IMG/VR virus record: IMGVR_UViG_3300021356_000185
Location: 1 to 22,449 of that record
Length of the DNA: 22,449 nt
Strand: one strand, 5' to 3'
Source: a virus
Positions within the stretch are counted from its first letter, which is position 1, and each line of letters starts with the position of its first letter. The notes below the pieces were generated by a model. The model had not been told where the DNA came from and did not search any database. It saw only the letters and a list, made by a program, of their open reading frames with translations. This document shows, in pieces, positions 1,988 through 22,449 of the stretch. Both the position numbers and the translations under genes were made by a program.

Positions 1988-2668
1988 TTATCTTTTGATT
2001 GCGATTAATCCGACAAAATTAAAATTTTGCCAGAATGGTTGAATAGAATCAAAACCTGCTTCTTCACACATTTCAATTAATTCATGATGTTTGCAAGGTT
2101 TCATTAAGTAACGTAACGTCCTTTCTTTTTCTAGAATTGATTTTTCAGTATAAAACTGACTTTTGAAATCATAATAACAAAATGTCATCATGTCTTGAAT
2201 CTGAGGATCATCTGAATATGTCTTCTCAGAAAATATAAATGCACCACCAATATTAAGACCATCATAAATGCTATTGATAACATTTTGTCTCGCATGATGA
2301 GGCATAAACTGCAATGTAAAAATAGAAGTAACCAGATTACAATTTTCGAATTCATAACCTCTTACATCACCTTTTACAATCTGAATATTTTTAGTCAATG
2401 GATTAATTACCATTTGATCATAAAAATCTTTTTCTATTTCAACACCAATGTAATTTGATTCTGGTGCTATGTCTACATTCTGTTTAAACATTGCATCGAT
2501 TAGTTTACCCGTAGAACAACCAACGTCAACTACATTTGTGTAATCTTCAACAAAGTATCTAGAAAATTTCAATACATCATTCCAAAGGTCTTCATAACCT
2601 CGTATTGAATGTAGGATATGACTATCGAAACCTTCTTTCTCACTTGAAGCAAAAGTAAATTTAGCCAT
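1988..2668 (-). CDS. CmoA-like carboxy-SAM synthase / class I methyltransferase
   Basis: A 226-aa Rossmann-fold protein whose motifs follow E. coli CmoA along its length. The SAM-binding loop is DVGCSTGK (48-55), followed by GDVRG (100-104), FTLQFM (117-122), IYDGLNIGGAFIFSEK (134-149), YYDFK (165-169) and the C-terminal WQNFNFVGLIAIK. CmoA converts SAM plus prephenate to carboxy-SAM; in bacteria CmoB then uses this to carboxymethylate wobble uridine of tRNA. No CmoB is visible here. Instead the gene overlaps a DNA C5-methyltransferase by 8 bases, which suggests the product may feed that enzyme. E. coli CmoA recognises the carboxylate through an Arg in its late helix. An Arg (183) lies next to that position here, but the helix register is uncertain. 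It could instead be a plain methyltransferase. Confidence 0.72.
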   Translation of the reverse strand: MAKFTFASSEKEGFDSHILHSIRGYEDLWNDVLKFSRYFVEDYTNVVDVGCSTGKLIDAMFKQNVDIAPESNYIGVEIEKDFYDQMVINPLTKNIQIVKGDVRGYEFENCNLVTSIFTLQFMPHHARQNVINSIYDGLNIGGAFIFSEKTYSDDPQIQDMMTFCYYDFKSQFYTEKSILEKERTLRYLMKPCKHHELIEMCEEAGFDSIQPFWQNFNFVGLIAIKR

Positions 2669-3893
2669 TTGTAATCTCTGAATATGGTTTTAAAACACTT
2701 GTGTAAATTGATTTAGCAATCTCTCTCATCATCTTAGGTGCAACCATTCTACCAAGTCTTTCTGCTTGTTGATCGAAATCACCAGTTAAAATAAAATCTT
2801 CTGGCATACCCATCAATCTTTTAAACTCTATTATAGTAGGTTTTCTGTTCTCTGCATAGTGAAAAACACCAGAAAGACCTTTTTTCTGACCTTGTTGTGT
2901 TAATGTAGGAGATGCTAGTTTTGGGGAGGGTCGAATCATGTTGAAACATGATCCTTTTGGATTTTGTTCTCTGAATTGTTTGTCAGATGGTTTGGTTGGT
3001 TTCTCTGGACTAAATGGCAGAAAACTCAGAAATTTATTCTGATAAGAACCTTCAACAAAGTCTAATAACATTTGAACTTCTTCAGGATCATTTTCAATGC
3101 CTTCAAATGCTTCAAGCATACTTACATGACTTGGTACAGTTTTTGCAGGAAAAATACTATTGATGTTCATCCAATTCAAACCAACTTTGTCACACACATC
3201 ATTTCTTACACAAATAAAAATAGTTCTTTCTCTTAACTGTGGTGTACCAAAATCTGCGGCATTCAAAACTTCATATGAAACATTGTAACCTATTTCTTCA
3301 AATGCAAGAATAAATTCTTGAAGTTTTTCTTTTGCTTTTCCAAACGTAATGCCTTTGACGTTCTCAGCAACAATAACTTTAGGTTGTATTCCTTTTGCAA
3401 TACGAATAAATTCTATGAATAGATCTTCAATACCTTCTTGTATTTTATCTTCAGAATATTTCTTAATACCTTCTTTCTCAATCAATTCGCCTTTGCTTAC
3501 AACTTCACCAGTTTCAAAATCTATGTAAGATTCTCTCGTATCTTCTATTGCACCTGCCCAACCTTTATCTCGTTTACCCGCAAGTGAAAATGCTGAACAT
3601 GGTGGTGAACCATCAAGTAAATCCAATTCACCAGATTCTATTTCAGCCATTTTTAAAAAATCTTCTGATGAATATTTTTTGATATCATCTACTAAAACTT
3701 TTGTATCAGGAAAGTTTGCTTGATATGTAGAAATTGCTTCAGCAACAAATTCATTGATTAAAAGAATGTTACCGCCAGCATATCGATAGCCAGTTGAACT
3801 GCCACCACCACCAGCAAAACAACTGATTACATTAAAAAGTTTTTTCGATGATTCGTCTTTGACATCTTGTAAATAATATTTCTCGTATTTCAT
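2661..3893 (-). CDS. DNA cytosine-C5 methyltransferase with altered motif X (possible carboxymethyltransferase)
   Basis: A 410-aa Dcm-family enzyme. Visible motifs are I (FAGGGG, 26-31), IV with the catalytic Cys99 (SPPCSAFS), VI (ENV, 177-179), VIII (QLRER, 219-223), the RLMGMPEDF block near 359-367, and motif X as LGRMVAP. The usual motif X is IGNxVPP, so Arg382 replaces the conserved Asn that lies near the cofactor. An insert of about 40 residues sits between motifs IV and VI. I chose ATG 3893, which overlaps the upstream stop as ATGA behind GAGGGG; a longer frame would need TTG 3923. No restriction endonuclease is adjacent, so it is an orphan enzyme. With the CmoA-like and AsnB-like neighbours, a carboxy-SAM-dependent modification of cytosine is a good hypothesis. 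Ordinary methylation for restriction evasion is the alternative. Confidence 0.9.
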   Translation of the reverse strand: MKYEKYYLQDVKDESSKKLFNVISCFAGGGGSSTGYRYAGGNILLINEFVAEAISTYQANFPDTKVLVDDIKKYSSEDFLKMAEIESGELDLLDGSPPCSAFSLAGKRDKGWAGAIEDTRESYIDFETGEVVSKGELIEKEGIKKYSEDKIQEGIEDLFIEFIRIAKGIQPKVIVAENVKGITFGKAKEKLQEFILAFEEIGYNVSYEVLNAADFGTPQLRERTIFICVRNDVCDKVGLNWMNINSIFPAKTVPSHVSMLEAFEGIENDPEEVQMLLDFVEGSYQNKFLSFLPFSPEKPTKPSDKQFREQNPKGSCFNMIRPSPKLASPTLTQQGQKKGLSGVFHYAENRKPTIIEFKRLMGMPEDFILTGDFDQQAERLGRMVAPKMMREIAKSIYTSVLKPYSEITNG

Positions 3894-4762
3894 AACCCCT
3901 CTATTGTAGATGTTGGATACCAATCTCTCATGAGATCAAGCATTCTTCCTCTATTATGAATGTTTATTCTGTCATTGTCAAGTAATTTCTCAAAATAAGA
4001 TGGAATGTCTGCGGCAAGTTGAAGATTTAAATGATCTCTTCTTTTTATTTCATGCAGTCTTGGGAAGGCATCAAAGATAGGTGCTTTTTGAAATGGTTTG
4101 TTAAAATAGTTCCAGTCGTATTGTGTCATCCAATCCCACACTTCTTTATGTACGTATGGTGCTACAATAACAGAACCGATTGATTCTGCAAGCAACATTT
4201 GTTGCCTTATACCTACTGGATTATCTATAATAAATGTTTGAGTGGCTTCGTCTAATCTACCAAAGTAACCTCTTCTAAATTGATCGATTAATTCCTTTGT
4301 ATGTTTAAAATGTATGTTTGCTCTTTTGCTCACACCATAGTAACCATCTGCGGCCCAACCTGTCAAAATGTATTTTTCTTTGATATGTGGATAGACATAA
4401 AGAAATGGAAATGTACATTCAACATGCGTTTTTTTCCTACACTCATATTTTCTCATAAGTGTAAGAAAATCTTCTTCAATATTGTCAACTGGGACATCTA
4501 TGATTTTTAGATTCCAATTGAAATGTTCACATGCTTTTTGAGATGCTATGCTATCTGGAGAGTCTGTACCATCTATACGAAACGTATAGCAATTTAAATT
4601 TTTACCCAAAGCATCAGCGGCCACTGCAATAGAAAGACTATCTGTACCGCCTGACATTAAAACTGCTACTTCATTATCAGGAACCTCTTTTTCCAGAATC
4701 TTCGTTATGATCTCGTTTAGCAAGTTCTTCGGATTGTTTAAGTTTTCTTTTGAGGATGTCAT
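3890..4762 (-). CDS. asparagine-synthetase-like PP-loop ATPase (amidating domain only)
   Basis: A 290-aa protein with the PP-loop SGGTDS at residues 37-42 and a second block LTGWAADGYYG (133-143), which corresponds to the SGEGADELFGG region of asparagine synthetase B. The spacing between these blocks and the C-terminal helical part fit the AsnB synthetase domain, which adenylates a carboxylate and lets an amine attack it. The N-terminal Cys2 glutaminase domain is absent, so it would use free ammonia, another amine, or a separate partner. ATG 4762 is taken as the start; the codon before it is TTG. It overlaps the DNA methyltransferase gene by 4 bases. In this context the acceptor could be a carboxylate placed on DNA. 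Other AsnB-like enzymes act on peptides, sugars or tRNA, so the substrate is not proven. Confidence 0.78.
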   Translation of the reverse strand: MTSSKENLNNPKNLLNEIITKILEKEVPDNEVAVLMSGGTDSLSIAVAADALGKNLNCYTFRIDGTDSPDSIASQKACEHFNWNLKIIDVPVDNIEEDFLTLMRKYECRKKTHVECTFPFLYVYPHIKEKYILTGWAADGYYGVSKRANIHFKHTKELIDQFRRGYFGRLDEATQTFIIDNPVGIRQQMLLAESIGSVIVAPYVHKEVWDWMTQYDWNYFNKPFQKAPIFDAFPRLHEIKRRDHLNLQLAADIPSYFEKLLDNDRINIHNRGRMLDLMRDWYPTSTIEGL

Positions 4763-7264: not shown

Positions 7265-7427
7265 TCTCAAAATGATATTCAGAATCTTTTATTTTATCTT
7301 TTATCACATCAATAATATGTGTATTGAGTGTTACATTTCTTTCGTGTGCTTGCAATGCAAGTTTCAACAAAACATCATCAGATAAATCTAATTCAATAGA
7401 TTTTGTTTCTTCAGGCTGTGATTTCAT
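7224..7427 (-). CDS. small ribbon-helix-helix-like protein, 67 aa
   Basis: After a short N-terminus there is a strand-like KSIELDLSD, then two helices (about 18-30 and 36-48) separated by a turn with NVTLN. This is the pattern of Arc/CopG ribbon-helix-helix DNA-binding proteins. Similar small proteins sit between gp47 and gp46 in many marine T4-like phages. I chose ATG 7427, which overlaps the gp47 frame by 17 bases; ATG 7442 is possible and neither has a strong ribosome site. Its DNA target or any regulation of this operon is unknown. The C-terminal 20 residues are Gln/Asn-rich and probably flexible. Confidence 0.6.
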   Translation of the reverse strand: MKSQPEETKSIELDLSDDVLLKLALQAHERNVTLNTHIIDVIKDKIKDSEYHFENGTQPQLLAENQT

Positions 7428-8262
7428 AGTCCAAGGCTTCATTGTAAAGTGTTCTAATAAGGTTATCAAGTTCTTTTTTATTTTTTTGTATATTTAATGT
7501 ATCTATATAGTTGCTCAGTATTGTTAATGTATCTTCTGCTTCATCGACTACAGAATCATCATCCTCAAATTCAAGATCAACATTCTCAACCACAGATACG
7601 TCTGCGACATCCGCCTTGTACAATTCATCCAATAATGTATCAAACCAATATGGATTGTTCTTTTGAGCAACAATAACTTTAACAATTGTACCTGAATATG
7701 GTGTGTAATCTTTCTCTTTAATACTTTCGAAAGTTTCTTTAGAATCATCATAGTAGATCTTATAAAACATCCTATACGGATTTTTGATGAATGTTAATTC
7801 TCTAGTCTCTGTATCAAAAACATGAAAACCTCTTTCATCATTATAATCAGACCATGTGATCTCGTAAGGATTACCTAGATAAGATATTCCTCCTTGAGTT
7901 GATTTGTGGTGAAAATGACCACTAAATACTGTATCAAATTTAGAAAACATATTGATATCAAAACCAGTATCACATATATGTCCTCTATGCATTTCAAAAC
8001 CATTTATCTCAAGATGACCCATCATGATTTCTGCCCTTGTTTCTTTTATAGCATCCATGCATTCAAGATAATTATCAGAGTTGATCCATGGCATCATAAG
8101 AATCTTCGTACCATCAAAATCATACTCTCTAGGTTCAGCATAAATCCATGGTTCAAGAATGTGGTCAGCGGTACTAAAAAGTTCTGTAAGTGAATTGACC
8201 TGATTTGTATTCTTGTAGTAGATATCGTGATTGCCGACAATCATATGTGTGTCAACATTCAT
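7411..8262 (-). CDS. 47: recombination endonuclease gp47, C-terminal part (separated by frameshift)
   Basis: This 283-aa frame holds the rest of a Mre11/SbcD-like nuclease: VGNHD (9-13), MGHLE (81-85) and the metal-binding FSGHFHHKS (114-122). The N-terminal 75 residues, with the first two phosphoesterase motifs, are in the next frame upstream (8486-8259). The two frames overlap by 4 bases as ATGA, so the downstream part could be translated by coupling, but neither piece alone holds the whole active site. Reading one base twice near 8265-8270 would join them into a continuous protein of normal gp47 length. A sequencing or assembly error is the simplest explanation. Confidence 0.9.
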   Translation of the reverse strand: MNVDTHMIVGNHDIYYKNTNQVNSLTELFSTADHILEPWIYAEPREYDFDGTKILMMPWINSDNYLECMDAIKETRAEIMMGHLEINGFEMHRGHICDTGFDINMFSKFDTVFSGHFHHKSTQGGISYLGNPYEITWSDYNDERGFHVFDTETRELTFIKNPYRMFYKIYYDDSKETFESIKEKDYTPYSGTIVKVIVAQKNNPYWFDTLLDELYKADVADVSVVENVDLEFEDDDSVVDEAEDTLTILSNYIDTLNIQKNKKELDNLIRTLYNEALDYEITA

Positions 8263-8486
8263 CTCCCATATCGTTCTACAAAATTTTCTCTCAAATCATT
8301 TGCAGTCTTAAAATTAATATATTTTCTTCTATCAACAACATCCCCAAGATGAATACATGTTTTTATATTATGCTCATCAAGATAAGGAAAAAATACATTG
8401 TCATAAAACTTGGAGAAAAAATTTGCAAATATTGCACTATCATTTCTCGCACCCCAATGAGTATCAGTTATTAAGGCTATTTTCAT
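8259..8486 (-). CDS. 47: recombination endonuclease gp47, N-terminal part (separated by frameshift)
   Basis: A 75-aa frame with the first metallophosphoesterase motifs of gp47/Mre11: TDTHWG (7-12) and GDVVDRR (48-54). It ends early at TGA 8261-8259, just before the GNHD motif found in the next frame. In intact gp47 homologues the segment between these motifs is continuous. The start ATG 8486 overlaps the end of gp55 by 23 bases. Together with the downstream frame it would be a 350-360 aa protein, near the usual gp47 size. Confidence 0.88.
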   Translation of the reverse strand: MKIALITDTHWGARNDSAIFANFFSKFYDNVFFPYLDEHNIKTCIHLGDVVDRRKYINFKTANDLRENFVERYGR

Positions 8487-9130: not shown

Positions 9131-10609
9131 TTAATCAATATTAATAGGTACAGTAATTATCTTGTAGTCAAACTGTTCCTCGTTGTATATCTTAACTCTT
9201 TCGATGAAATGTTGAAGTGTATAATTCTTGTAATTCTTATATGAAAAATCATCCGCTATGTCGTATAGTGTGGCCATTTCTTTTTCTTTGTTTTTCCTCA
9301 GTCCTCTTCCTATGCTCTGTAGATTTCTCACACGGGATTTAGAAGGGGAAGCAAAAATGACATTATGAAGATTAGTGATATTGATACCAGTAGAAAAAGT
9401 GCCGTAACTCGCAACGATGATGGCATCTCTTTCTGACTCAACGATTCTTCTGATATCTTCTCTGTCATTTGTATCGGTTCCTCCGTAGACGAAAAAGACT
9501 TTTCTTCCATCTTCAACCTTTTTTTGGATCTGTTCATAGATAGTTTTGCCGTGTTTTTCTACCATCTGAAATAACACAAGTGTATTGTTTTTCAGACTAA
9601 CGGCAAGATTACGAATGAAACGATTTCTCGCTTCGTTCAATATAATATAATTTATCTCTTGCTTATAGTTATATGACTTAATTTCTTTGCTTATTTCATC
9701 GTTGTATTGTAAAACTAAACATTTGATTTGAAATGGAGATAATGTTTTATTGTCAATTAATTCTTTTGTAGATGTTACAGTATAAGTCTTACCGAACAAT
9801 CCTTCTAATACTAATTTGTGTGTAAGAGTCCCATCCAATGTTCCTGTAGTCCCAAACTTATATTTTGTCTTAATGCTCTTTTCCATAATCTGTGAAAGAG
9901 ACTTTGCTTTGAACATATGAGCCTCATCACCAAGTATCATATCAAATTCAGCATAGTAATTTAATGTCATTTTATATAATGATTGCCATGTTGAAATGTA
10001 AATAGGTTTTGGTGATACTCTGTCTTTACCTGCCCATATTTCATGTATATTTTCTAGTGCATCCCAATTATCATTTTTAGAATACTCTATGAAGTCACTT
10101 CTCATTTGAGCAACTAAAGATGTTGTAGGCACTATGATGAGTGCTTTAAATGTAGGTGATTTCTGTTGATAGTATCTAAGAAGTAAATATATTATGAAAG
10201 ATTTGCCAGATGCCGTTGGAGAGAGAAGCAAGCATCTTTCGTGATTAATCGCATATAAAAAAGCATCAATCTGATAGTCTCTAGGTGTAATGTTTAATAC
10301 AAGACTATTGACAAATCTTTCATAATCCCCTTTATCATATTTATTCAAAATCCTAGGAAAACTTTTATACTCAATTTTATATTCTCTATCTTTTGCAAAT
10401 TTAATTACATGATCTATTAAACCAGTATATAATTCTTTAGATCTTAAATTGTATAGTCTAATTTTACCATCCCACATTTTACTTTTAAATGCAGGCATGA
10501 ATCGATATCCTGGTACAAAAAATGTAAAGTATTCACTTAGTTCTTGCTCTACACCAGGTTCAGACTGAACCAACATGTGAACTTCATTTTTCTTATCAAT
10601 TGATATCAT
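9131..10609 (-). CDS. uvsW: DNA helicase UvsW
   Basis: A 492-aa superfamily 2 helicase. Visible motifs are motif I SPTASGKS (130-137), motif II GDEAH (227-231), motif III GTTGT (253-257) and motif VI SIGRGLRK near residue 443. The N-terminal domain, with PGYRFMPAFKSKMWDGKIRL, is like the T4 UvsW DNA-binding domain. UvsW unwinds R-loops and branched DNA, and in T4 it switches origin replication to recombination-dependent replication. Length matches T4 UvsW (about 500 aa). It starts at ATG 10609 overlapping the gene before it by 4 bases, and is next to gp55 as in cyanophages. Confidence 0.95.
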   Translation of the reverse strand: MISIDKKNEVHMLVQSEPGVEQELSEYFTFFVPGYRFMPAFKSKMWDGKIRLYNLRSKELYTGLIDHVIKFAKDREYKIEYKSFPRILNKYDKGDYERFVNSLVLNITPRDYQIDAFLYAINHERCLLLSPTASGKSFIIYLLLRYYQQKSPTFKALIIVPTTSLVAQMRSDFIEYSKNDNWDALENIHEIWAGKDRVSPKPIYISTWQSLYKMTLNYYAEFDMILGDEAHMFKAKSLSQIMEKSIKTKYKFGTTGTLDGTLTHKLVLEGLFGKTYTVTSTKELIDNKTLSPFQIKCLVLQYNDEISKEIKSYNYKQEINYIILNEARNRFIRNLAVSLKNNTLVLFQMVEKHGKTIYEQIQKKVEDGRKVFFVYGGTDTNDREDIRRIVESERDAIIVASYGTFSTGINITNLHNVIFASPSKSRVRNLQSIGRGLRKNKEKEMATLYDIADDFSYKNYKNYTLQHFIERVKIYNEEQFDYKIITVPINID

Positions 10610-11091
10610 CTAATCCAAACTTTAGATCCTGCCCAAACATTATCTGGTAAGATCCAAACTTCTTTGAAATACTCGCCCACCGTTTTTGCTACGTCACCCC
10701 AATTATAATTGCATCCCATAAGTAAACCATCTTCGTGTATTTTAGATGACCAACATTCTAAGTCTGATGGTTTGCATTCATTTATAAAAACAAAATCAAC
10801 TGATTCGTCTTTAAATTCTTTTGATGCATTTTCTGAAGTATCTAAAATTAAATTTATATCAGGTGTTTCATTTACTTTTTTAGTCCACTTACTCATAGTA
10901 TCATCGACCGCATAATATTTTAATCTATCCCTTTTCACTTCAAGAGTGCCTTTATCTATACCAATCTCTACACCAACCTTGTAATTAAATTGTATAGAAA
11001 AAATTTTTATTACTTCCCATCTTTTCCAATAAAAAGGGTAGGCGAATTGTGCGCCAGTTTTTATCAAGTCTTTGGGACTAGGTCTTCTCAT
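10606..11091 (-). CDS. small class I methyltransferase-like protein
   Basis: A 161-aa protein with a methyltransferase-like core: KVGVEIGIDKGTLE (about 39-52) is like a SAM-binding motif I, and DSVDFVFINE later resembles motif IV. The acidic residue and Gly-rich loop are weaker than in active enzymes, so it may be a divergent or non-SAM version. I chose ATG 11091, which overlaps the glycosyltransferase stop as ATGA and has GGAG 8 bases upstream; ATG 11109 would add 6 residues. It follows a glycosyltransferase, so a sugar- or protein-modifying role is possible. No substrate can be named. Confidence 0.6.
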   Translation of the reverse strand: MRRPSPKDLIKTGAQFAYPFYWKRWEVIKIFSIQFNYKVGVEIGIDKGTLEVKRDRLKYYAVDDTMSKWTKKVNETPDINLILDTSENASKEFKDESVDFVFINECKPSDLECWSSKIHEDGLLMGCNYNWGDVAKTVGEYFKEVWILPDNVWAGSKVWIR

Positions 11092-12101
11092 TTCATCAAC
11101 TCCAACCATTTCTTGACAATCAAATCTGGATCAAATTTTTTCATATCAACTTTTGTTTGTCTCTTGTCTACATCTAACATCCAAGCGTAAATGTCATCTA
11201 AAGTAGTGTGATCTCTAACAAACATATTATTTTTATCTGTCAGTATTTCTTCAGCGGCATCTTGTTCATGTGTTATTACAGGCACACCTAATTTATTTGC
11301 TTCAAGATAAACAAGACCAAATGTTTCTTGGGGCATACCCATTCTGAATAAACATGCACTATTGCTAAGATTTTTTAGAACGGCTTCATAACTTAGTTCT
11401 CCTAAGAAATGTATTGGATATCCGTGCTTATTTGCTTTTTCAATTGTGTCAGTAAAAATGCTAACATCTCTTCTTTGTCTTTGTGGAGGGCAACAAACAT
11501 AATACGGTCTTTTCATTCCTTTGTCGTACAATGCAATATAAGTCATTATTGATTCTTTGAACCCTTTACCGTATGCACTCATCCAAAAAAGATAATCACC
11601 TCTCTTCTTTTTGATAGGTTGAGTATCAACCCCTTTTGGCACCATATAATGAATTGTTTTATCACCCTTAACTTTTTCACTTCTATGTTGAACATATTTT
11701 TCTAGAGCATGTGACAAAAAGATTCTTGGTGCTTCTACATGACATTCAGACCAATTATGCATCCATATAAAAGTTTTCTCTGATGAATTTAATTCTATAG
11801 GTGACAATGCTCTTATGTGAGGATTAAACATTTGATATCCTAGAAAACAATTTCCAGCATATGCTAATTTGTTACAGTCTAATCTGACTTTTGATTTAGC
11901 ATAATAATGTCTAAAATGATCTAAGTGTTTCACACCATTGATCACTTGATCATGACCATTTAAAGAATGAACAATACCTACATTCAATCCCTCTTCTGCT
12001 AGTCTTTCTGCTACAGTAATTATTTGTCTTTCAGTACCACCTTTAGCCCCACCATCTGTTTCGAACAATGGCATGTTTGCTATCATTAAAAAATCGTACA
12101 T
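11088..12101 (-). CDS. GT4-like glycosyltransferase
   Basis: A 337-aa protein of the GT-B fold (GT4/group 1). The N-terminal half has a Gly-rich acceptor-side loop (FETDGGAKGGTERQ) and a helix with AERLAEEGLNVGI. The C-terminal half carries an ETFGLVYLEANKLGVPVI segment, the typical E-x7-E nucleotide-sugar site. It would transfer a sugar from a nucleotide-sugar donor to DNA, a capsid protein or another acceptor. It starts at ATG 12101, one base over the UvsY stop, with an ideal AGGAG. The TTG start 12128 is less likely. Standing between uvsY and uvsW it might act on DNA, but virion or envelope glycan targets are equally possible. Confidence 0.82.
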   Translation of the reverse strand: MYDFLMIANMPLFETDGGAKGGTERQIITVAERLAEEGLNVGIVHSLNGHDQVINGVKHLDHFRHYYAKSKVRLDCNKLAYAGNCFLGYQMFNPHIRALSPIELNSSEKTFIWMHNWSECHVEAPRIFLSHALEKYVQHRSEKVKGDKTIHYMVPKGVDTQPIKKKRGDYLFWMSAYGKGFKESIMTYIALYDKGMKRPYYVCCPPQRQRRDVSIFTDTIEKANKHGYPIHFLGELSYEAVLKNLSNSACLFRMGMPQETFGLVYLEANKLGVPVITHEQDAAEEILTDKNNMFVRDHTTLDDIYAWMLDVDKRQTKVDMKKFDPDLIVKKWLELMK

Positions 12102-12544
12102 TATGCTCCTGATGTAAATTTTCTCCAATCAATTATATTTTTAATCAAAAAATTTCTATTGACAACTGTTTTTATAATTGATTCAAGATATTCAATTTTT
12201 TCTTTTTGGTATGCAATTTTTTCTTGTATATCGATCATGTCTTTGTCTGATTCTAAAAATCTGTCTAGGTCAACTTTATTTCTAGATTTTATATCAAGTT
12301 CAAAAGGTTCCCAACCCATGTTGTCTAAACTATCTCTATCAATCTTACCTGTATAGTAAAGCCATTTGAGTCTGGATAATTCTTTTTTTCTTGATTCAAA
12401 TTTTACAAGTCTCAGTTTTTCATCAGAAAAAATTTTATAATATTTGTTGTGAAGTTCTGGTATTCTTTTCGATTCTAAATCTAATTGTACATCGTCAAGA
12501 ACACAATCACTGGTCCATAATTCTTGTATATCCTCTAATTTCAT
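12101..12544 (-). CDS. uvsY: recombination mediator UvsY
   Basis: A 147-aa helical protein close in length to T4 UvsY (137 aa). It begins with MKLEDIQELW, like the T4 start MRLEDLQEEL, and ends with FLIKNIIDWRKFTSGA, close to T4 FAIKHIQDMRAFEAGK. UvsY loads the UvsX recombinase on SSB-covered single-stranded DNA. ATG 12544 behind GAGG is chosen over TTG 12547. It sits beside uvsW as in many T4-like phages, though here a glycosyltransferase and a methyltransferase-like gene separate them. Confidence 0.9.
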   Translation of the reverse strand: MKLEDIQELWTSDCVLDDVQLDLESKRIPELHNKYYKIFSDEKLRLVKFESRKKELSRLKWLYYTGKIDRDSLDNMGWEPFELDIKSRNKVDLDRFLESDKDMIDIQEKIAYQKEKIEYLESIIKTVVNRNFLIKNIIDWRKFTSGA

Positions 12545-12556
12545 CAAACCTCATAA

Positions 12557-13093
12557 TTAATGTTCGCCAATCATCCTTTCAATGTTATATGTAGTATACG
12601 CAAATGTAGCATCTGAAGCAACTGTATCTACATCTGAAACATCCGATTGCATTTCAATATCTGTTAAATCAACAGGAAACATGTTCGAAAATTTTGCAAC
12701 ATATTGTGCATTTTTATTACTCGTAAGTATAGTCAATGATCCATCAGAATAAACATCACCCATGGGATTGGGTACATCTGCTTGTCTTAATCTTCTGTAT
12801 TGATCTGTGGAATCTGGAAAAGTAATACCCTTGATCCAATTATAAACTTCTAACCAATTCTGTAACTCTTCATCTACAATAAATCTAACTCTTAATTCAT
12901 TGTATTGAACCTTATCACCAGCAATAGGATAATCTCTATTTGGTGTAGTTACAAGTGCTTGTCCTGCGGCAATGCCAGGAAGATTAGCAGATTGTACAAA
13001 GAAGTTTACGTGAGGTAATTTTTCAATCTGAAATTTAAACCCTGTAGGTAAAAAATAATTTAGATTCGTTGGTTGTTTGCTAGATTCTGCCAT
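12557..13093 (-). CDS. 19: tail tube protein gp19-like
   Basis: A 178-aa protein of the T4 gp19 tail-tube family. It has the family-like N-terminal segment FLPTGFKFQIEKLPHVNFFV, then a loop with NLPGIAAGQALVTTPNRDYP, then GDKVQYNELRVRFIVDEE, similar to the beta-barrel tube strands of gp19 and related baseplate proteins. It would line the tail interior as stacked hexamers, or act as a tube-initiating baseplate protein. A gp19 paralogue beside uvsY is common in cyanomyoviruses. The start ATG 13093 overlaps the preceding gene by 34 bases. It may be a second, divergent gp19 copy because the main one normally follows gp18. Confidence 0.8.
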   Translation of the reverse strand: MAESSKQPTNLNYFLPTGFKFQIEKLPHVNFFVQSANLPGIAAGQALVTTPNRDYPIAGDKVQYNELRVRFIVDEELQNWLEVYNWIKGITFPDSTDQYRRLRQADVPNPMGDVYSDGSLTILTSNKNAQYVAKFSNMFPVDLTDIEMQSDVSDVDTVASDATFAYTTYNIERMIGEH

Positions 13094-13740
13094 AATTCTT
13101 CTTCAGGAACATTGGGTATACCTTTGAGAGAGGTCCATTGTTCTATTACTCTTTTGATTTTAATTCTCTCATATGTATTTATGAGATATTCAAAACCCTC
13201 TATAAATTCTTTTTCCATTTCATTTGGGTAGTCTTCAGAAGGATATCCATTTGTACCATCATAGATATTATCTCTTTTTCCGAAAATATCAAAACCAATG
13301 AGATAAATTATATCAGTAGGAAACTGATGATGTGCAAATCGTGTAGCCATTAATCCTGCACTTAGTCCCACGCCATCATCTGGCCATGGAGTTTTCATTA
13401 TCTTGCTTCCTTCTTTTATCCATGTGATGTACGTATAGTCACCCCAACCAGTACAAAAAAATTCAAAACCTGTTGGTTCATTTTCAACAACTTTGCCTTC
13501 GAAAGACAAACCATCTCTCGCCATTGCTGGAATAGACTCCATGTTGTTTAGAACAACTGTATTATTTAAAGCATAGTCACTACTTAAAACTTCATGTGTT
13601 ACATGAGGATCACCTGTGTACAAATAATCTGGCGAAAAATCTCTGTATAATGCATTACAACCATATACTTTAGCATTCTTTTTTATTTTTTCTAAATCCA
13701 TATTCTGTCTAGATTTACCATTACCTACAACAACTAACAT
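13060..13740 (-). CDS. 'GNGKSR' family protein, copy 2 (possible sugar-transferase-like)
   Basis: A 226-aa protein that is paralogous to the gene just upstream. Shared blocks are VVGNGKSR at the N-terminus, GCNALYRDFSPDYL, CTGW, YLIGFDIFGKRDNIYD and IKRVIE. The N-terminal GNG loop followed by a 'CN' segment is reminiscent of GT42-type sialyltransferases and DUF115/MptE-like proteins, but I cannot name a function. ATG 13740 is chosen (TTG 13752 is possible) and overlaps the copy 1 stop by 7 bases. It is longer than copy 1, with an extra middle segment (around residues 75-130). Similar proteins occur in marine phages as conserved hypotheticals. Confidence 0.72.
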   Translation of the reverse strand: MLVVVGNGKSRQNMDLEKIKKNAKVYGCNALYRDFSPDYLYTGDPHVTHEVLSSDYALNNTVVLNNMESIPAMARDGLSFEGKVVENEPTGFEFFCTGWGDYTYITWIKEGSKIMKTPWPDDGVGLSAGLMATRFAHHQFPTDIIYLIGFDIFGKRDNIYDGTNGYPSEDYPNEMEKEFIEGFEYLINTYERIKIKRVIEQWTSLKGIPNVPEEELWQNLANNQRI

Positions 13741-14297
13741 ATTTCTTTCCAAAAATTTTCATAAGTTATGTTTTTAATATTAGGAATTTCAAGTGTATCA
13801 TCGATAACTCTTTTTAATTTGATACCAGGACAAAAATGTTCTTCGATCATACTAAACATACTTTCCCATTCCCTTGACATGTGATGAAATTCTGTAGATT
13901 TTGGATAACACGATGTATTATCATAAATGTTATTTCTTTCACCATGTATATCATATCCAATCATGTATATTTGATCTTCAGGAAATAAACTATACGCAAG
14001 TCTTACATTTGCCCAACCAGTATTGATTGGATGTAAAGTATCGTTCCATGGTGCTAATTTAAATTTATGCTCTGGAGGAATATTTAAACTAGGGTTTTGT
14101 TGAACAAGGTAAACAATATTATGTTTTGAATAATTGTTTTTGATAATTTCGTTTACCATTTCATTATCATTTGTAATTAAATAATCAGGTGTAAAATCTC
14201 TGTATAATGCATTGCACCCAAAAATTTTTCCGTGTTTTTTTAATTTATTCAAATCAAGATGTTCTCTCGACTTACCATTTCCAATACAGAATATCAT
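13734..14297 (-). CDS. 'GNGKSR' family protein, copy 1 (possible sugar-transferase-like)
   Basis: A 187-aa protein with the same conserved blocks as copy 2: CIGNGKSR (4-11), GCNALYRDFTPDYL, NTGWANVRLAY, MIGYDIHGERNNIYD and LKRVID. The matched DIxGxRxNIYDxTxxYP block suggests a real active or binding site. It overlaps the methyltransferase upstream as ATGA, so the three genes may act together, for example on a small molecule or glycan. The GNG loop could bind a nucleotide or nucleotide sugar, by analogy with GT42 or DUF115 proteins, which is only inference. No signal peptide or membrane segment is visible. Confidence 0.72.
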   Translation of the reverse strand: MIFCIGNGKSREHLDLNKLKKHGKIFGCNALYRDFTPDYLITNDNEMVNEIIKNNYSKHNIVYLVQQNPSLNIPPEHKFKLAPWNDTLHPINTGWANVRLAYSLFPEDQIYMIGYDIHGERNNIYDNTSCYPKSTEFHHMSREWESMFSMIEEHFCPGIKLKRVIDDTLEIPNIKNITYENFWKEIC

Positions 14298-14842
14298 TCT
14301 TTTTTATATGTTTCGTAGTGAATTTTATCAAGACTATGATCGAATGAATACAAAGCATGAACTTCAATGTTGCTTGTTAAACTGTCAGACATTTTAGATC
14401 TCCACCAATCAATTGATTTGAGTGTGCAATGAGCATTTTCGCCATTTGATAGAGTTGTTGATGCTGGATACATTGCGATATTAATAAAAGAACATAATTT
14501 ACTTAATCCAAAAATTTGACTTAGTGTATCTGGTATTTCTTCTTCAGGAACATGTTCTAAAACATCAGTACATATAACTAAATCATATTCAGTACCAGGC
14601 AAAGCACCAAATTGAGATACTGCTGGATCATAAAGACCCATATCTTCAAGTCCCCATTTTAAATGAATTCTATCATCAATATATGCAGATGCACCACCAC
14701 AACCATAGTCTAATGCAGTCCTACAATTTTTTTCTTTTATTAAATTATCAATGCTTTTGAAATGCATTTTTAACGAATTACCAGAATAGTGGTTGGTTGG
14801 GTCACTATGATATTCACGATATAGATCTATTTTAGAATGCAT
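14294..14842 (-). CDS. class I SAM-dependent methyltransferase
   Basis: A 182-aa protein with the SAM-binding motif ALDYGCGGAS and a motif IV-like DLVICTDVLEHVPEE, typical of Methyltransf_11/23-type enzymes that methylate small molecules or sugars. ATG 14842 has GGAGA at a good distance; ATG 14854 is possible but sits next to the terminator. It is the first gene after the gp23 terminator and is coupled by ATGA to the GNGKSR genes. The substrate cannot be told. There is no target recognition domain, so DNA is unlikely. Confidence 0.85.
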   Translation of the reverse strand: MHSKIDLYREYHSDPTNHYSGNSLKMHFKSIDNLIKEKNCRTALDYGCGGASAYIDDRIHLKWGLEDMGLYDPAVSQFGALPGTEYDLVICTDVLEHVPEEEIPDTLSQIFGLSKLCSFINIAMYPASTTLSNGENAHCTLKSIDWWRSKMSDSLTSNIEVHALYSFDHSLDKIHYETYKKE

Positions 14843-14862
14843 ATTGTTCTCCATAAACAAAA

Positions 14863-21040: not shown

Positions 21041-21814
21041 TTAAATTTTGATCATTCTAATAAAAAAACCAGTCAAATCAGTTTGCCACCATTTATTGTC
21101 TTTTGGAAGTGTAGTATAGTTGGATGGGTTATTGTGATGATTTAAATGATATCCCTCACCTGCTAATATAAAATTTAATAATTCTCCTGTATTCGAAGGT
21201 TCACCTTTTCTATGTGTATATGCATTTACAATTGCAGATGAATGAATAGTCATAATTACAGGAATACAAAAACCAAATACAAATAACAAAGGATCTATTA
21301 GTAGAAATACAACTATGATAGTGGTAATCAAACGTAAATAATTACTATAAAACCATTTTACGACAGGATCTTTTGCACCTGTTAACCAGTCTTTCAAATC
21401 TTCTTTTGTTACTGGATAAAAATAAATGGCTCCTCGAAATTGAATAAACCACACGTCCCAAAAACCTCTATGTGCAGGACTGTGAGGATCGATATCCGTA
21501 TCAACATACTTATGATGCATTTGATGAATACCACCCCATATTAAAGTTGGACCTGTGTTTCCAAACAATGCTATTATTTGATAATAATAATCATACCAAC
21601 GTGGTGCTTTAAAAGACCTATGAGCATAGTATCTGTGATACCCTGCGAGATTGCCAGTACAATTAACCAAATACCCCCATAATATTCCTAATATCCACAT
21701 CCACCATTCGCCATATAAAATTGCAGGTATAATTGCTAAATGTGCTATTGTGTTTATTGCAAAAAATATTAAATTTTTTGACTTAATTAGATTCTTCGGC
21801 TTATCTATTTTCAT
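21041..21814 (-). CDS. membrane fatty acid desaturase (delta-9 type)
   Basis: A 257-aa membrane protein with the three His boxes of acyl-lipid/acyl-CoA desaturases: HRYYAH (60-65), HQMHH (97-101) and HLNHH (223-227). Hydrophobic segments near 16-34, 37-55 and 160-190 would form the usual pairs of transmembrane helices, with the His boxes binding two irons on the cytoplasmic side. It would insert a double bond into fatty acids using oxygen, probably to change host membrane fluidity. Phage desaturases are known from marine myoviruses. ATG 21814 overlaps the stop of another desaturase as ATGA. Confidence 0.94.
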   Translation of the reverse strand: MKIDKPKNLIKSKNLIFFAINTIAHLAIIPAILYGEWWMWILGILWGYLVNCTGNLAGYHRYYAHRSFKAPRWYDYYYQIIALFGNTGPTLIWGGIHQMHHKYVDTDIDPHSPAHRGFWDVWFIQFRGAIYFYPVTKEDLKDWLTGAKDPVVKWFYSNYLRLITTIIVVFLLIDPLLFVFGFCIPVIMTIHSSAIVNAYTHRKGEPSNTGELLNFILAGEGYHLNHHNNPSNYTTLPKDNKWWQTDLTGFFIRMIKI

Positions 21815-22449
21815 GTCTTCATTAAAAATTTTTCAATTAGAAAAACATTTATATCATCTCTTTCATACCATTTGTCAGACATTTTATGATTATATCTTTC
21901 AGGATAAGCATGATGATTATTTTGAAGTACCGATCCTCCAGTCAAAATATTAGACCAAATACAATTATGACTTTTATCTTTTGTATCAAAATTTCTATAA
22001 TTTGAAATTAAGAAACCTGCATTTTTTAAATGTCCTGTGGTATTTACTAATCCACCAACATGAAAAGTAATAACACTAGGCAACGCAAACAAATAAACAA
22101 ATATTCTCCAATCAATAAAACATAATAAAAATGGTAAAACGCAAATTAAAATATAATTTCTATGAGTCCATTTTAAAATATCACTCTTTAATAAGTCTTT
22201 GTAATATTTGTGATCTGCTTGTTCACCGTCTCCTATAAATTTTGAATAAATCGTACAGTATGCTCTAATCAATGACAAGTAATGTGGTGAATGTACATCA
22301 TCTTCGGTATCTGAATATTTGTGATGTATTCTATGAAAAGGAGCCCATACTAATACTGGACCCATGTAGACATAGCAAGAACATATAGCCATTAATTTTT
22401 CTGCCCAAGGTTTTGCTTCAAATGCAACATGAGCAAAATATCTATGTGC
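21811..22449 (-). CDS. second membrane fatty acid desaturase (5' end cut by window edge)
   Basis: The frame is open from the right edge (22449) to the stop at 21811, about 212 residues. At the edge it reads AHRYFAH, the first His box, followed by HRIHH as the second and QNNHH as the third, so the His of HxxHH is replaced by Gln. It is a paralogue of the downstream desaturase but clearly different in sequence. Two hydrophobic segments lie near the middle (ILICVLPFLLCF, VYLFALPSVITF). An internal ATG at 22392 is not the start. The QNNHH form occurs in some proteobacterial desaturases as far as I recall, so it is not taken as inactive. Confidence 0.9.
   Translation of the reverse strand, partial: AHRYFAHVAFEAKPWAEKLMAICSCYVYMGPVLVWAPFHRIHHKYSDTEDDVHSPHYLSLIRAYCTIYSKFIGDGEQADHKYYKDLLKSDILKWTHRNYILICVLPFLLCFIDWRIFVYLFALPSVITFHVGGLVNTTGHLKNAGFLISNYRNFDTKDKSHNCIWSNILTGGSVLQNNHHAYPERYNHKMSDKWYERDDINVFLIEKFLMKT

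Follow-up and report, generated by a model that had tools for sequence, protein, structure and literature searches.

Three overlapping genes of a marine T4-like phage very probably encode a pathway for DNA hypermodification. The DNA that we analysed, a stretch of 22,449 nucleotides that we call the window, carries a trio that, judged by homology and by diagnostic residues, we assign with high confidence as a CmoA-CmoX-CmoY operon. A full-text search turned up a single paper on such a trio, which appeared in December 2025 and reports its chemistry for Synechococcus phage S-B43 (Yang et al., Nat Commun 2025; PMC12783734). In that phage CmoA produces carboxy-SAM (Cx-SAM), CmoX generates 5-carboxymethylcytosine in GC motifs, CmoY caps it with glycine to give 5gcxmC, and virion DNA contained the modified base (PMC12783734). 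The pathway is already published, and the window trio extends this known system to a further phage group.

The proposed mechanism in the window has three enzymes acting in turn. CmoA would convert SAM and prephenate to Cx-SAM. CmoX would flip a cytosine out of duplex DNA, attack C6 with Cys99 and, with Arg382 holding Cx-SAM, move the carboxymethyl group to C5 to give 5-carboxymethylcytosine. CmoY would adenylate the carboxylate of this base with ATP and then couple it through an amide bond to an amino acid, of which glycine is the likeliest, yielding 5gcxmC. That Cx-SAM synthesis and C5 carboxymethylation occur as proposed is, in our analysis, just as strongly favoured as the operon assignment. 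We infer the same reactions in this phage, together with the amine, the target sequence and the biological role, from the S-B43 homologues; the benefit of the modification is likely to be resistance to host restriction. An initial annotation of this DNA had proposed the same succession of Cx-SAM synthesis, C5 carboxymethylation and ATP-dependent amide formation, and both the S-B43 homologues and the diagnostic residues argue for it.

That annotation had also placed three overlapping genes at 1988-4762, and this is what we found, on the minus strand with overlaps of 4 and 8 nt. The first is the cmoY-like gene (3890..4762, 290 aa), predicted to encode an ATP-dependent amide ligase of the asparagine-synthetase/beta-lactam-synthetase type. 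It is followed by the cmoX-like gene (2661..3893, 410 aa), for a predicted cytosine-C5 carboxymethyltransferase, and the cmoA-like gene (1988..2668, 226 aa), for a predicted carboxy-SAM synthase. As read from the sequence, the cmoY stop and cmoX start share ATGA (3890..3893, minus strand) and the cmoX stop and cmoA start share ATGGCTAA (2661..2668, minus strand); these stop/start overlaps make translational coupling of the trio plausible, and the 8-nt overlap places cmoA in one operon with cmoX. Chance open reading frames were ruled out as the source of the trio, because it has a stop-free run of 424 codons, whereas 300 shuffles of the same 2.8 kb gave none above 113. The mechanical list of reading frames gave TTG starts for cmoY and cmoX, for which the in-frame ATGs at 4762 and 3893 are better candidates. 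The cmoY start is likely to be the ATG at 4762; it is the sole uncertain boundary of the trio, and the first ~14 residues of the ligase are not conserved.

The phage itself is a marine T4-like myovirus, whose capsid protein has its nearest counterparts, at 62-63% identity, in Pelagibacter phage HTVC008M and the Melnitz phages. The trio is flanked by gp46/peptide deformylase and by a gene for a large VWA-type protein, a neighbourhood common to the loci L002 and L005. Elsewhere on the minus strand of the window, a gp47-like recombination nuclease is present as two reading frames of 75 and 283 aa (7411-8486) with an ATGA overlap at 8259-8262, which is either a real gene split or a sequencing frameshift. 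The interval between capsid and helicase (10606-14860, minus strand) holds a cluster suggestive of surface sugar chemistry, made up of a group 1 glycosyltransferase, a small methyltransferase and two related GNGKSR proteins, with a tail-tube-like gene breaking it up. Two adjacent fatty-acid-desaturase-like genes lie at 21041-22392 (minus strand).

CmoX belongs clearly to the C5-methyltransferase family (Pfam DNA_methylase PF00145, E 8.8e-52), its top PDB match is SpCmoX of S-B43 with bound Cx-SAM (8YF3, E 1.5e-100), and it is 47.4% identical to SpCmoX. Its catalytic motif SPPC occupies residues 96-99, and the alignments and sequence place the predicted nucleophile, Cys99 (SpCmoX Cys98), at codon 3597..3599 of the minus strand. 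The alignment with 8YF3 identifies Arg382 (codon 2748..2750, minus strand), equivalent to SpCmoX Arg350 and HhaI Asn304, as the predicted residue that binds the Cx-SAM carboxylate. This arginine bears directly on the reading that CmoX is an ordinary 5-methylcytosine methyltransferase that adjoins cmoA and an AsnB-like gene by chance. Family membership speaks for such an enzyme, as does the finding that some close relatives have no cmoA next to cmoX. However, wild-type SpCmoX takes Cx-SAM only and uses Arg350 to bind its carboxylate (PMC12783734), and the gene order is conserved in 21 contigs. We therefore rejected the plain methyltransferase on Arg382, and consider it highly improbable.

Of 17 aligned proteins, 16 carry this arginine in the column of HhaI Asn304, as do all full-length CmoX proteins of the window lineage that we examined beside cmoY and/or cmoA. 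The one exception, with leucine, is the methyltransferase of Methylophilales phage Melnitz, ~37% identical to window CmoX (tblastn); CmoA was not found in the whole Melnitz record, and this leucine-bearing enzyme is a useful negative control for the arginine as a diagnostic. In Melnitz-3 (L044:82-5227) a gene for a RimK-like ATP-grasp ligase lies a few genes upstream of the leucine-bearing methyltransferase. Dinucleotide composition of the window is neutral for the modification question: GC, the SpCmoX motif, has an observed/expected ratio of 0.96 and is not depleted, and that of CG is 0.58.

The family assignments of the initial annotation (CmoA-like, C5-methyltransferase and AsnB-like) held up in Pfam for the methyltransferase and ligase, in matches to solved structures and in AlphaFold folds. 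For the CmoA-like protein, the best solved structures are those of E. coli CmoA (E 1e-23); 4iwn and 4gek are the top fold matches (TM 0.81-0.86; 0.86 to 4gek) of its AlphaFold model, which has a mean pLDDT of 83. It is 48.5% identical to SpCmoA. Against the NCBIfam CmoA equivalog it scores 106.5 bits, below the 193.3 cut-off; SpCmoA, which is active with a kcat ~10x that of E. coli CmoA (PMC12783734), scores 115.6 and also falls below, so the cut-off shuts out the phage CmoA branch.

Window CmoA has a charge swap at the site that holds the product carboxylate in the E. coli enzyme. In E. coli CmoA, Arg199 forms a salt bridge with the Cx-SAM carboxylate (PMC3663124). The window protein has Glu182 in the Arg199 column and, one helical turn on, Arg186 at the position of Glu203 (E. 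coli residues being numbered by counting backwards from the C-terminal end). The alignments thus make helix segment E182-RTL-R186 (2111..2125, minus strand) a charge-swapped counterpart of E. coli R199...E203. They also show the swap in all CmoA proteins of the window lineage and in SpCmoA, and the E. coli Arg/Glu arrangement retained in Erwinia- and Alcaligenes-type phage CmoAs. From the sequence we infer that Arg186 may take over binding of the carboxylate. The main text of PMC12783734 makes no mention of the swap which, being common to the assayed SpCmoA, is a sequence mark of the phage CmoA branch that standard models reject.

PHROGs and the sequence records label the cmoA-like gene a tRNA methyltransferase. 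Read literally, CmoA would serve wobble cmo5U formation in tRNA of the infected cell, and the methyltransferase and ligase would be unrelated to it. Against this stand the overlap of the cmoA start with the methyltransferase gene stop and the occurrence of the same gene grouping in S-B43, whose modified DNA has been demonstrated (PMC12783734); there are also no tRNA genes in the window, which is a fragment and the only sequence that a search of the phage's own genome brought up. On the overlap and the S-B43 precedent we rejected a role for CmoA in tRNA modification alone, to which we give almost no credence, and retain its assignment to the DNA pathway.

The ligase determines what is finally attached to the base. 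It matches Pfam Asn_synthase (PF00733, E 6.9e-11) and has an SGGTDS P-loop. In fold, its AlphaFold model (mean pLDDT 79) resembles beta-lactam synthetase and AsnB in their synthetase domains. The 290-aa protein consists of the synthetase domain only, no glutaminase domain being found by Pfam, and for this reason ammonia is a less likely substrate than glycine or another amine. The ligase is 45.7% identical to SpCmoY, or 45% over 271 aligned positions, with long blocks common to both (KKTH.ECTFPFLYV, ADGYYGVSK, HFK, NKP.QK and H.NLQL). On this resemblance, glycine is probably the amine joined by window CmoY.

The initial annotation had left the amide end product as either 5-carbamoylmethylcytosine or a conjugate with another amine. 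The conjugate fared well, given the resemblance to glycine-using SpCmoY; 5-carbamoylmethylcytosine became less likely, given the missing glutaminase domain. A pathway that keeps the first two steps and has CmoY use another amino acid or ammonia, giving for example 5-carbamoylmethylcytosine, is unlikely. The conserved blocks and the stand-alone synthetase domain speak for glycine, whereas an identity of just 45% to SpCmoY leaves room for change, and the survey in PMC12783734 describes ligase clusters with distinct pocket residues, one of them glutaminase-bearing. Because the ligase sequence has changed and the presence of cmoA and cmoY is modular among relatives, a non-glycine amide is conceivable; there is a small chance that the window ligase attaches such an amine, which would give a cytosine amide new to science in this phage group. 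Glycine remains our preferred amine.

Is the trio a stable unit? The initial annotation had made its reading depend on conservation of the three genes in relatives, and this was borne out in part: most relatives keep the trio, and some lack cmoA or cmoY. Of the 30 viral loci recovered with the ligase, 21, in IMG/VR contigs, have cmoY-cmoX-cmoA in that order, although these contigs are partly near-identical and 21 is not the number of independent cases. The remaining ligase loci either have no cmoA downstream or lie on a contig that stops short. No cmoA was found in the records (26 to 77 kb) of the close relatives L003 and L005-L007, whose CmoX is 80-82% identical to that of the window. The window has an 81-aa reading frame after cmoA, and its homologue in L005 comes right after cmoX. 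CmoX in close relatives with cmoY-cmoX on a contig without cmoA would use host Cx-SAM, a cmoA located elsewhere, or plain SAM, and phages of this kind are a natural case for whether host Cx-SAM suffices. A further close relative (L004, the same contig as L036) has a cmoY broken internally into two reading frames, with cmoX and cmoA intact. The system is modular, as PMC12783734 also reports; in this other marine T4-like phage group the gene content is stable, and the gene order and the retention of cmoA and cmoY are variable.

Other phages carry variations on these genes. Erwinia phage pEa_SNUABM_13 (L045:21413-23545) has a CmoX homologue of 711 aa with an intein-like insert directly after SPP (Pfam Intein_splicing, E 4.4e-07, below its cut-off; Hint_2, E 1.8e-04). 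Because the insert sits at the catalytic motif, this CmoX could be active only after splicing. In the Staphylococcus phages vB-SscS-F1 (L046:5042-7560) and SPbeta-like (L049:4393-6092), cmoA lies beside a C5-methyltransferase of a different lineage, together with cmoY in F1. These methyltransferases have the motif X sequence VVGGVINQ, with glycine instead of arginine at the carboxylate-binding position, so that loci of this type would be missed by the published R350 filter; their sequence suggests that they may bind Cx-SAM in another way. In Moraxella phage Mcat8 (L047:3226-4966) an arginine-bearing CmoX homologue precedes a short CmoA-like protein, which stops before the CmoA C-terminal part. 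In Alcaligenes phage Afa-NA1 (L050:1679-6223) a CmoA homologue and a Dam-family adenine methylase are separated by ~2.5 kb, and no C5-methyltransferase was detected in the complete phage record. This pairing is a possible lead to N6-carboxymethyladenine; PMC12783734 reported finding none of this kind.

Comparison with known systems places the window trio closest to S-B43. The tRNA wobble pathway of E. coli CmoA/CmoB shares the CmoA fold and reaction, with 4gek among the top fold matches. Its acceptor is tRNA ho5U, via CmoB, whereas that of the window is predicted to be C5 of DNA cytosine, via a C5-methyltransferase homologue, and Arg199/Glu203 of E. coli CmoA are swapped in window CmoA. M.MpeI N374K offers a parallel for Arg382, in that a basic residue at the HhaI Asn304 equivalent gives Cx-SAM use (PMC12783734); that enzyme is engineered and CG-specific, whereas window CmoX is natural and has arginine. 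In Synechococcus phages S-CRM01 and RN05-S cmoA likewise adjoins cmoX, in the order cmoA-cmoX, but cmoY was not found in the whole record of either, and these phages therefore probably carry bare 5cxmC or another cap. S-B43 differs from the window in gene order (A-Y-X rather than Y-X-A), in having no counterpart of the extra ~29-residue stretch after KGW in window CmoX (residues ~113-142), and in that its reactions were shown biochemically. Nevertheless, all three window proteins are homologous to those of S-B43 over most of their length (45-49% identity), and in both phages the genes are adjacent and overlapping, CmoX has SPPC and the carboxylate-binding arginine, the ligase stands alone without a glutaminase domain, and CmoA is charge-swapped.
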